Origin: an uncultured Mycoplasmatales bacterium
GTDB lineage: Bacteria; Bacillota_I; Bacilli_A; Mycoplasmatales; Mycoplasmoidaceae
Assembly (NCBI GenBank): GCA_949422915.1
Contig: CASPLF010000003.1
Coordinates: 1 to 42,933 of the forward strand
Direction of reading: 5' to 3'
Length of the DNA stretch: 42,933 nt
Below, piece by piece: positions 21,897 through 27,834 of the stretch. Position 1 is the stretch's first letter. The number at the start of each line of letters is the position of its first letter. The position numbers and the translations under genes were made by a program. The notes under the pieces are model-generated. The model searched no databases. It saw only the letters and a program-made list of their open reading frames with translations, and was not told the DNA's origin.

Positions 21897-23579
21897 ATGG
21901 AAAATAAAAAATCACCTACATATATATTTGCATTAGGTGGAGTAGAAGAAATTGGTAAAAACATGTACGTAGTTGAACATGAAGATGAAATCTTCATTAT
22001 CGATTGCGGTATCAAGTTTGCTGATAGTAATAGCTTGTTAGGGGTAGATTCAATTATTTGCCCTTTTGACTATTTAGTAAAAAATAAAAACAAAGTAAAA
22101 GGTTTAATTGTAACTCACGCCCACGAAGACCACATTGGTGGCATTCCTTATTTATTGAAGTCAATTAGCATTCCTAAAATTTATGCTGCTAAGTTAACTG
22201 CTGGAATTATCAAGAAGAAATTAAAAGAACATAAAGATCTTCAAAATTTTGCTTTTGAAAATATTGATGACTTTAAAGTATTAAAAACTAAACATTTTTT
22301 AATCGAGTTCTTTAGAGTGTGTCACTCTATCCCTGATGCTTTTGGTATTTATTTTGAAACACCAAATGGCAAAATAGTTTCTACTGGTGACTTTAGATTT
22401 GATTTTTCTACACAAGGAGATGAATCAGACATTACTAAAATGGCTGACTTAGGTAGAAGAGGAATTGATGTTTTGTTATGTGAATCTACTAATGCAGAAA
22501 CACAAGGCTTTTCTACAAGCGAACGTTACATTATTAATGAAATTAAAAAAATCATTGATAATGCAAAAGGAAGAGTATTTGTTTCTACATTTGCTTCTAA
22601 CTTAGGAAGAATTGAAGAAATTATTGAAATTGCTATTAAAAACAATAGAAAAATTTGTTTAATTGGAAGAAGTATGGTGACTAATATATCAACTTCTATT
22701 GAAGTTGGATTTTTAAATGTTAGTGATGATTGGTTTATCGAAACTCGTGAAATTAATGAATATCCAGACAATGAAGTTTTGGTTTTATGTACAGGTAGCC
22801 AAGGAGAAGAAATGGCTGCATTAAACCAAATGGCTATGGGTAAACATGCTTGAATTACATTCAAACCAACCGATCTATTAATCATGTCATCTAATCCAAT
22901 TCCTGGTAACTATGAAAGTGTAGAAAGATTGTTAAACAAACTTTCTAGGAAGAACATTACTATTGTTACAAATAGAGCTGAAACAAAGTTACACGCTTCA
23001 GGACATGCTACGGAAACAGAACAACAATTAATGTTTAAATTAATTAATCCGTTGTATTTAATTCCAATTCATGGTGAATACAAGATGTTAAAAGCGTTAA
23101 GAAAAAACGCAGCTGCTGCTGGTATTAAACCAGACAATGTAATTCAAGTAATAAATGGTCAAAAAATTGAATTACTTGATCATGTAGCAACAGCTACTGA
23201 AGAATTCATAGACATTTATGATGTCTATGTTGATGGTAATAATGTTAACAGTGATTCTGATGGATTATTAAAATGTAGAAAAACATTATCGCAATATGGT
23301 GTTTTTAATATCACATTATTAATTGATAAGAAAAACAAGAAGATTATTGAAAATCCAGTTGTTTCTACACGAGGATGCATATATGCAAAAGCACATTACG
23401 GTTTAATGACTAAAATTTCTTATTCGATTAAATCAAGTATTGAAGAAGCAATGCAGAAATCAAATAATCCAATTGAAAGTGCAGAGATTAGAAAAATTTG
23501 TGAAGTTGTAGCTTCAAGTTTTATTTGAAAACACAAACGTAAAAAACCGTTAATTAGAACTACTATTTTTGAAAGATAA
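21897..23579 (+). CDS. rnjA: Ribonuclease J
   Basis: 560 residues, one frame across TGA Trp codons at 22851 and 23526. The metallo-beta-lactamase motif is VTHAHEDHIGGIPYLL, with further ligands in CHSIPDA and STGDFRFDF; the beta-CASP part contains SSNPIPGNYESV and HASGHAT, and IPIHGEYKML follows. RNase J is a 5'-3' exonuclease and endonuclease central to mRNA decay in low-GC Gram-positive bacteria. I use rnjA although only one copy is visible and J1/J2 assignment cannot be settled. Confidence 0.95.
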
Positions 23580-23590
23580 TTTTTATTTTA

Positions 23591-23626
23591 TTGCAAAAAA
23601 AAAAAAAAAAAACGAAAGGATATAAT
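23591..23626 (+). promoter_or_regulatory. Promoter with A18 tract, likely phase-variable
   Basis: TTGCAA (23591-23596) and TATAAT (23621-23626) are separated by 24 bases, most of it a run of 18 A residues (23595-23612) followed by CGAAAGGA. Slippage in the A-run would change the spacer; at about 11 A residues it would be the usual 17. Poly-A tracts in this position switch vlp lipoprotein genes of Mycoplasma hyorhinis. The start codon of the lipoprotein gene is 31 bases after the -10 box. Confidence 0.7.
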
Positions 23627-23656
23627 AAGAATACAATTTTTAATATAAAAATAAGT

Positions 23657-25302
23657 ATGAGCAAAAAAATAATTAAAATAATTACATCAATTTCTCTTGG
23701 GGGGGGTTATTAACAACTCTTCCGCTCACAACTACAAGTTGTAGTTTTTCTAACAACAATCCAACAAAATTAGAGTGTAATGATGGTACTATTCCTGGCA
23801 ACATAATAGGAAATGTAAATACTTCAATAACTCCAACTCTACCTCTTTCAGGGCACATTAAAACTGACGTTGGAGAACCTGTAAGTAATGTAACTTTCAC
23901 ATGTGAAGGATTAAAAGAAAAAACAGGATTAGATATTAATGAAACAACCGGTGTTATTAATGGTACTCTAACCAATAAACCTACTAATCCAGAATTTAAA
24001 ATTAAATTCACTGCTAATGTTCGTGGTAAACAATTAGAGGGTTGTACTAACCCATTTGCAATTACTGTTAATCCAACAAAATTAGTAATTGATAAGGCAT
24101 TAGATCCAATTAATGCTAATTTAGATAATGAAATTACTTCAACAATTGATATATCAGGATTAATTAAAACAGATACAGGAGAATCTGTAAGCGGTGTAAC
24201 TTTCACTTGTGAAGGTTTGCCTAATGGATTATCAATTAATCAATCTACGGGAGTAATTTCTGGAACTCCAACACACATTCAAGAATCAACTTCTTATATT
24301 ATTAAATTTAGTTGTACATTTAAAGAAATACAATTAGAAGGTTCAACAGAAATTAACATTCAAACAAATGGTCCACAATCTATTGTGTGTTCGCAAATCG
24401 AAGATCGATCAATAGTTGTTAATGAATCTTTTTCTTTAAGTGTTGCTAATGTTAAAATGGTGTTTGATGGCGGAGTTCAAAAATCTTTATCTTCTAGTGA
24501 TATCGCATCATATGAATTGGTAGATGATAAAGGACAATCAGCCGGAAGCACATTACCACAAGGGTTAAATTTTAACACAAATAATGGTAGTATTTCTGGT
24601 ACTGTAACTAGTTTAAACTATTATGCGCCTACAACTTATAAAATCAAAATTACAGGGTCACAACGTATTGGAAGTGTAATTGGTTATTCAAATACTTTCA
24701 CATTGTCAATGAAAGACAACCCATTGCCAGAAACTGTTTATGACATTGATGAAAACAATGTTTTAAAAGGGTTCAAAGAAGGTGTTGATTTGTCTCAATA
24801 CGATGGTATATGTGATACTATGCAAATTCCTACCAATGTAACAAGCGTTGCTAATATGGCTTTTTTCAATGAATCACCGGCATCAACAACCATTCCATCA
24901 TTTATTAAAAACTTAACTTTTGGTAAACAATCAAAATGTACTACCATTGGTTTTTATTCATTTCGACTTTCTACACTAATAGTAGTTGATCTTTCAAATG
25001 CAACTAATTTAGAAAAACTTATTGAAGGTGCATTTACTCAATGTTCAGTATTGACTTCTGTAACATTTCCAAGCAGTTTAACTTTAATTGGTAATTATGC
25101 TTTTTATATAAATTACTCATTAAATAGCATCATATGAAATTCTTGAAATAGTACTGCCACTGTAGAAGCAACTGCATTTTATTCAGGTCTTCCTGCTCAA
25201 GGAACAGTTCTTGTAACTAATCCTATTGGTAGCAATAATAGTGCAGCGTTACTTGCATATTTAAAAACTAAAGGTTTGCCAAACGGTTGAACTGTTGCTT
25301 AG
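23657..25302 (+). CDS. Phase-variable lipoprotein, out of frame at G8
   Basis: From ATG 23657 (MSKKIIKIITSISLGGG) the frame meets a stop four codons after the start of a G8 run (23699-23706). With one more G the frame joins the downstream one and gives a 548-residue protein. It would begin with a signal peptide and a plausible lipobox (LTTTSC, Cys ~29), so it would be a surface lipoprotein. Three Ig-like (putative-Ig type) units follow, with GLSINQSTGVISGTPT most typical, then leucine-rich BspA-like repeats (SVTFPSSLTLIGNYAFYINYS). Trp TGA codons occur near the end. The ORF-track entry at 24217 is only the second part. A frameshift from sequencing error in the G-run is the alternative. Confidence 0.82.
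23699..23706 (+). repeat. G8 homopolymer in signal-peptide codons
   Basis: Eight G residues in an AT-rich genome, inside the hydrophobic part of the signal peptide. G9 (or G6) opens the reading frame; G8 closes it and G7 also leads to an early TAG. This is the standard layout of a translational contingency locus. Confidence 0.8.
23857..23910 (+). repeat. Repeat unit 1 of the Ig-like lipoprotein
   Basis: A 54-base segment matched at 43 of 54 positions by 24163-24216, exactly 306 bases downstream, encoding IKTDVGEPVSNVTFTCEG against IKTDTGESVSGVTFTCEG. It marks a ~102-residue domain duplication. Confidence 0.75.
24163..24216 (+). repeat. Repeat unit 2 of the Ig-like lipoprotein
   Basis: Second copy of the unit at 23857-23910 (11 differences by eye). 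Confidence 0.75.
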
Positions 25303-25431: not shown

Positions 25432-27834
25432 ATGTATAACCATAATCTTATAGAGAAAAAATGACAGAAATATTGGTTGGAACATAAGACTTTTCAATTT
25501 AAAGATGATTCTAATAAAAAGTTTTATGCTCTTGACATGTTTCCTTATCCATCTGGTCAAGGTTTACATGTTGGACATCCAAAAGGTTATACAGCAACTG
25601 ATGTAGTTTCTAGATTTAAAGTTCACCAAGGATTTGATGTTCTTCATCCTATTGGATGAGATGCTTTTGGATTGCCTGCTGAACAATATGCATTGCAAAC
25701 TGGTAATCATCCAAGAGAATTTACTACTAAGAACATTAATCATTTTAGAGAACAATTAATGTCTTTAGGTTTTTGTTTTGACTATGACAAAGAAGTCAAT
25801 ACCACTGATCCTAAATACTTTAAATGAACTCAATGAATATTTTCAAAATTGTTTGAAAATAATTTAGCTGAAATCCAAGACATTGATGTTAACTGATGTG
25901 AAGGTTTAGGAACAGTTTTATCGAACGAAGAAGTTTTAATTGTTGATGGAAAGATGGTTTCTGAACGTGGAAGTTTTCCAGTAGTTAAACGTCCAATGAG
26001 ACAATGAGTTTTAAAGATTACAAAGTATGCTGATAAATTACTTGATGGTCTTAATGAAGTAGATTGACCAGAATCTTTAAAATCAATTCAAAAAAAATGA
26101 ATTGGTAAATCTGTTGGGGCATTAATTAAATTTAAAGCTAATGATTTATCATTAGATGTTTTTACGACTAGACCTGATACTATTTATGGAGTTAGTTATT
26201 TAGCGATTGCGCCTGAATCTTCATTATTAGATAAATTAACTTCATCTCAACAAAAATCAGAAGTAGAAAAATATGTTGCAATAGCTAAATCTAAAACAGA
26301 TGTTTTAAGAAAACAAGAAAAAGATAAGACTGGTGTGTTTATTGGAACATATGCAATCAATCCAATTACTAATAAACAAATACCTATTTATGTATCTGAT
26401 TATGTTTTAAAAGATCATGGTACAGGAATTGTGATGGGTGTTCCAGCACATGATGAAAGAGATTACCAATTTGCTAAAAAATATAATTTACCAATTACAT
26501 TTGTAATTGAATGTGAAAATCATAATGAAGCATTTACAAAAGATGGTATTCATATTAATTCAGAATTAATTAATGGACTAAATAATAAAGATGCATCAAA
26601 AACAATTATTGATTATTTAACTAAAAATAACTTAGGTAAACAACATACAACATATAAATTAAAGGATTGAATTTTTAGTCGTCAAAGATATTGGGGTGAA
26701 CCATTTCCAATTGTTTTTGATGAAAACAATAAGCCAACATTGGTAAAAGAATTACCAATTGAACTACCTTATATTAAAAATTTAAAGTTATCAAAAACTG
26801 GAGAATCACCATTAGTTAATGATCAAGAATGAATGAACGTTAATATTGATGGTAAACATTATGTTAGAGAATCTAACACAATGCCTCAATGAGCTGGTTC
26901 TTGTTGATACTATTTAGGCTATATTCTAAAACAAGCTAATGGTTCATACATAGATTTAAATTCGAAAGAAGCTTTTGAATTATTTAAAAAATGATTACCA
27001 GTAGATTTGTATATTGGAGGACAAGAACATGCAGTTCTTCACCTTTTATATGCAAGATTCTGACATCGTTTCTTATATGATATCAAAGTAGTTCCTACAA
27101 AAGAACCGTTTCAAAAAATTATTAATCAAGGAATGATTTTAGGAGAAAATGGTGAAAAAATGTCTAAATCTAGGGGTAATGTAATTAATCCTGATGACAT
27201 TGTCAAAACTCACGGAGCAGATGCATTAAGATTATATGAAATGTTTATGGGTCCATTAACTGCATCTTTACCATGAACTGAATCAGGGTTGAATGGTATT
27301 AGAAAATGATTAGATAGAGTTTATGCAATTTTTAACAATGAAAACATTAAAATTTGTAAAGATGCAAAACCTAATAAAGATTTAGAATTTGCATACAACA
27401 ATTTTGTTAAAAAAGTAACTAATTGTATTGATAAATACAATTTTAATGTTGGAATATCAGAAATGATGATCTTTATTAATGAGTGTTATAAAAATACAAC
27501 TCTTCCGTTAGACTACATGATAAACTTCTTAGTTGTGTTATCGTGTTATGCTCCTCACCTAGCTGAAGAACTATATTCTTCATTTAATAATGAATCAATT
27601 TTTAATGTTAAATGACCAACATTCTCTGATGCAGCATTAGTTAAGTCAACTGTTAGTTTACCAATTTCTCAAAATGGTAAATTAAGAGATGTAATGGAGA
27701 TTGATGTTAATACACCAAAAGATCAAGTTATTGAAATGGCAAAATCTCGTGATAAAGTTAGAAACTTTATTGATGGTAAACAAATCAAAAAGATTATTTA
27801 TGTTCCTGGAAAAATTTTAAACTTTATTTTGTAA
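25432..27834 (+). CDS. leuS: Leucyl-tRNA synthetase
   Basis: 800 residues; many TGA Trp codons break it up in the track (pieces at 25477 and 26335). It charges tRNA-Leu. The class I motifs are HVGH ([16 protein letters not shown]) and KMSKS ([17 protein letters not shown]). The CP1 editing domain is present, with [19 protein letters not shown] and [17 protein letters not shown] including the Asp used in hydrolysing mischarged tRNA. Some mycoplasmas (M. mobile) have lost this domain. It starts the leuS-helicase-MATE run. Confidence 0.96.

Follow-up and report, generated by a model that had tools for sequence, protein, structure and literature searches.

In Mycoplasma hyorhinis, a poly-A tract is present in the promoter of every gene of the vlp lipoprotein family, and insertions and deletions in this tract accompany ON/OFF switching (PMC10502178, accessible text, citing Citti and Wise, 1995). 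In the M. bovis P68 and M. agalactiae P48-like genes, the length of a poly-G tract in the 5' coding region sets the frame of the full lipoprotein, which includes a signal peptide and a lipobox (PMC2824730, accessible text). The Helicobacter pylori surface-protein gene sabA varies both at a homopolymer in its promoter and at a repeat in its coding region, and the study did not settle what effect the promoter tract has on transcription (PMC2715451). In the Neisseria fetA and porA promoters, a homopolymer located between the -35 and -10 boxes alters transcription (PMC5320596). The locus described here resembles vlp in that a promoter poly-A tract precedes lipoprotein genes, and resembles P68 and P48-like in its poly-G step. 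It differs in that the accessible vlp text, which concerns a different species, reports no signal-peptide G tract, and the accessible P68/P48-like text reports no promoter tract alongside the poly-G.

The DNA analyzed here (the window) is the whole 42,933-nucleotide stretch, which is contig C3 in a mollicute genome of 724 kb and 56 contigs that is 91% complete and has ~29% GC; TGA was read as Trp (translation table 4). The nearest named record, L046 (CATDIL010000003.1, an uncultured Mycoplasmatota metagenome bin), has ~96% DNA identity across the flanking genes, and the remaining named close relatives are metagenome bins mostly labelled Mycoplasmataceae. At the contig end (42818–42933), ~110 GC-rich bases beside a C7 run are unlike the rest of the genome, and this is possibly a chimeric end. 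The gene of interest lies between rnjA and leuS and encodes a protein with He_PIG and LRR_5 domains. The features of the locus are as follows.

21897–23579, plus strand: rnjA (ribonuclease J), the upstream neighbor (Pfam RNase_J_b_CASP and RNase_J_C)
23591–23596, plus strand: TTGCAA, a -35-like hexamer, called from the sequence and from the TTGC conserved before the A run in the promoter module
23595–23612, plus strand: A18 homopolymer in the promoter spacer, called from the sequence, run counts and module comparison
23621–23626, plus strand: TATAAT, the probable -10 box, 26 bases (18 A + 8) from the C of TTGC
23632–23637, plus strand: TACAAT, a putative alternative -10 that aligns by eye with the TATAAT of the L046 ortholog
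23657–23713, plus strand: reading frame of the assembled allele, with ATG at 23657, a signal-peptide start and a premature stop after 18 codons
23699–23706, plus strand: G8 homopolymer in the signal-peptide coding sequence, which puts the lipoprotein out of frame
23707–25302, plus strand: open lipoprotein frame of 531 codons, with the LLTTLPLTTTSC lipobox (Cys codon 23740–23742) followed by the mature protein
24100–24297, plus strand: He_PIG (PF05345), the strongest of three putative matches to Ig domains (whole-protein E 2e-17)
24817–25182, plus strand: LRR_5 (PF13306), BspA-type leucine-rich repeats (E 1e-10; PDB relatives 4gt6 and 4fs7)
25432–27834, plus strand: leuS, the downstream neighbor (Pfam tRNA-synt_1_2 and others)

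A previous sequence-only reading placed the A18 run between TTGCAA and TATAAT with a 24-base spacer. This was borne out, the inter-hexamer stretch being 23597–23620, with the correction that TTGCAA already includes the run's first two A's. As in the vlp genes, the run lies in the promoter region, eight bases before TATAAT; it is the only A run longer than eight in the window, starts 15 bases after the rnjA stop codon and is separated by 86 bases from the G8 tract. As in P68, the G tract is located between the start codon and the lipobox, and its length sets the frame. Translation of the assembled allele from the ATG at 23657 ends at the stop at 23711–23713; because G8 leaves the lipoprotein out of frame, this allele reads OFF.

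When the whole genome was scanned by pattern and read in stretches, 13 runs of A15–A20 were found, along with none of 12–14 and three of 10–11. Markov models of orders 1–5 fitted to the window predict 0.09–1.0 runs of A15 or longer in 724 kb; the A18 run is not a chance occurrence. Nearly all 13 sites carry a common promoter module, in which TTTGTTGC or a close variant is followed by A(n), a linker of (C)GAG or similar and a -10 box of TATAAAT or a variant (consensus, TTTGTTGC-A(n)-(C)GAGTATAAAT). A start codon is located 21–50 bases downstream at 12 of the 13 sites, one of these being soon cut by a contig end; the thirteenth also stands at a contig end. Most sites stand right before surface-protein genes, the majority lipoprotein-like, and several of the encoded proteins have the same LRR or Ig domains as the window protein; the site on contig C17 precedes a membrane protein with no lipobox. 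An A tract is thus common to several lipoprotein genes, as in the vlp family. As several A-run promoters are located at contig ends, the family of the window protein is probably larger than assembled. Further relatives, with Ig and LRR matches, are encoded at L030:139–1701 (G000 C19) and G000 C14:15080–17245.

The run plus linker amounts to 18–20 bases at ten sites of this genome, where shorter runs are paired with longer linkers. This compensation is what a spacing constraint predicts, and the test is weak (permutation p ~0.05 for the ten sites and 0.03 with the A20 site, lost once the window is added). In genome G049 the sum is longer and more spread (19–24). At the window it is 26, the largest of the set, versus 18–23 at the other own-genome sites with an assignable -10, and for this reason A18 has no canonical -35/-10 spacing. 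A sigma-70 scan, in which promoter-like sites were fewer than in shuffles, missed the window promoter because the spacers it permits are 16–18 bases only.

Comparisons of related sites indicate different tract lengths within well-conserved flanks, each length being a single assembly consensus value with one consensus per species. At two other A-run sites, sister orthologs in G030 give A17/A16 and A15/A14 pairs, with 59/60 and 56/60 identical bases upstream and 144/150 and 145/150 downstream. Paralogs in G049 have A18 and A20, with 148 of the 150 downstream bases identical. Separately, in the G011 locus L083, which encodes a homolog of the C19 lipoprotein, the tract at this promoter position is A8, against A16 in the own-genome copy, which suggests tract growth or shrinkage between species. 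For the window locus itself, neither a second long-A allele nor two alleles with differing G length were found among the genomes examined. The RNase J loci L035–L037 (84% identity) were considered as alleles and rejected, as no lipoprotein gene is located directly 3' of rnjA.

The two tracts of the window differ in distribution among its homologs. A G tract occupies the same position in four of them, being G8 in the window, G8 in the L046 ortholog, G11 in the C2 paralog and G10 in the G034 homolog. The long A run is absent from the C2 and G034 copies, and L046 has TTTGTT-A8-TATAAT in its place. As these homologs keep the G tract without the long A run, the G tract goes together with the coding sequence, and it is the promoter module that carries the A tract; the two may have been joined recently at the window.

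The tandem arrangement had been called unusual, and among sites with the A module this stands: the genomes examined contain 43 distinct A-run sites, and a further tract within 200 bases occurs only at the window. It holds less well for the genus as a whole. A search of 36 genomes for two tracts 58–88 bases apart revealed 15 lipoprotein loci in G002 with the layout C(n)-GGTG-TATATAAT-ATG-signal peptide-G(n), two G-tract/G-tract loci in G044, and one C/G and one G/G locus in G037, so that both tracts on one gene, the sabA configuration, occur at all of these loci as well as at the window. This recurrence means that the serial layout is no oddity of one locus. The reversed-pattern control in G002 returned none.

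In G002, the tracts are C8–C12 before TATAAT and G7–G10 in the signal peptide, and both differ among paralogs; in a sixteenth copy the C run is interrupted. The long lipoprotein is read through in 9 of the 16 copies and stopped early in the other seven. C length was not associated with frame state among the 15 loci, a small set, and this is consistent with independence; the compensation test was also weak (p 0.19). The start codon is located about six bases past the -10, so the mRNA would probably be leaderless, in which case the C tract could act only on the promoter.

Tracts of G8 or longer number 40–70 each in low-GC G002, G037, G039, G040 and G045, versus three in the genome of the window. 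G037 and G039 additionally contain at least 10 leader elements (L217:1015–1142, L220:1056–1181, L223, L224, L227 and others), each with, in order, a C tract, TATAAT, a leader ATG, G8–10, a conserved hairpin and an intrinsic terminator, then mostly a surface-protein gene. Ten of the 21 predicted pairs across both hairpins show compensatory changes, and in 10 of 10 elements one of the three frames after the G tract stops before the first hairpin, another at this hairpin or close to it, and the third within the terminator or beyond. From this arrangement, G length may set whether the leader-peptide ribosome disrupts the terminator, making a phase-variable attenuator. Rfam searches of the window and of the element loci tested returned tRNAs only.

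The reading that best accommodates these results, at a probability of roughly 0.6, is that A18 is a slippage-prone promoter spacer which, together with the G tract, forms a serial switch on the lipoprotein. A18 would belong to a promoter module present in 13 copies, most of which drive surface-protein genes. Gain or loss of A's by slippage in living populations would alter the distance from TTGC to the -10 and thereby set the level of transcription; G-run length would, independently, determine whether the lipobox is read in frame. Production of the BspA/Ig lipoprotein would thus require both a spacing that permits transcription and a G length divisible by three, as in an AND gate. The frame step can be read straight from the sequence, and the transcription step is suggested by the module, the spacing and the precedents of M. 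hyorhinis vlp and Neisseria fetA. The series of a transcriptional and a translational switch proposed earlier is borne out in part, with a multi-copy A module before surface genes, lengths that differ at other sites and a G tract that follows; its A half is weakened at the window itself by the outlying distance to the -10 and by possible read-through from rnjA.

These same weaknesses would be expected if only the G tract switches here, the A run being a relict or a recently acquired module and transcription being driven by rnjA read-through or an A-independent -10. No convincing terminator lies between rnjA and A18, the 200 bases upstream holding one weak hairpin, inside rnjA, whereas a simple scan finds a terminator-like hairpin with T's, several of them weak, within 200 bases upstream at 8 of the 12 other A-run sites. 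Retention of the G tract by homologs without the long A run and the alignment of TACAAT with the L046 TATAAT point the same way. However, an unmaintained 18-base run would be expected to decay, a perfect TATAAT follows the run, and this TTGC-A(n) block has been kept at other sites. We regard this explanation as unlikely, though it deserves the most weight among the alternatives.

The locus could instead be a decaying pseudogene in which neither tract is a reversible switch. The window allele and the C2, L046 and G034 homologs are all out of frame, L046 has a second frameshift and the C2 copy contains an internal TAA. Yet the window copy keeps an intact 531-codon frame, pairwise dN/dS for the gene is 0.43–0.50, and four OFF alleles out of four have a chance of 0.2 if two thirds of lengths are OFF, which makes decay improbable. 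It is more improbable still that errors of assembly or PCR in a metagenome bin account for the tract lengths, given that, even if short reads err in homopolymers and each species is represented by a single consensus, noise would not place tracts at the same module position at 13 sites and in several genomes assembled independently of one another.

The serial switch on the window lipoprotein, as preferred here, is composed of known parts, found in vlp, P68 and sabA. Meningococcal porA is also under dual control. Compared with the window and G002, sabA is a single gene in a Gram-negative bacterium and its coding repeat is a CT dinucleotide, whereas the G002 layout is present in 15 loci. The literature searched, mostly open-access papers, yielded no description of an entire lipoprotein family carrying both tracts; to our knowledge, a whole lipoprotein family that is doubly switched is new.

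Alone, the window locus is a modest example, and its weight comes from the recurrence in the genus. With two slippage switches in series, the ON state would be the product of two probabilities, and two mutation routes would lead back. Tentatively, and with somewhat less than an even chance, serial promoter and signal-peptide tracts might be a family-wide design in this uncultured Mycoplasmataceae genus, placing two independent locks on each lipoprotein gene so that the repertoire is mostly silent and few combinations are expressed per cell; the window would be a poly-A version of the poly-C/poly-G promoter design of its relatives. The 15 G002 loci, with their near-identical, doubly switched promoters and signal peptides, are a natural replicate set, suited to asking whether the transcriptional and translational locks are redundant or have different tasks.
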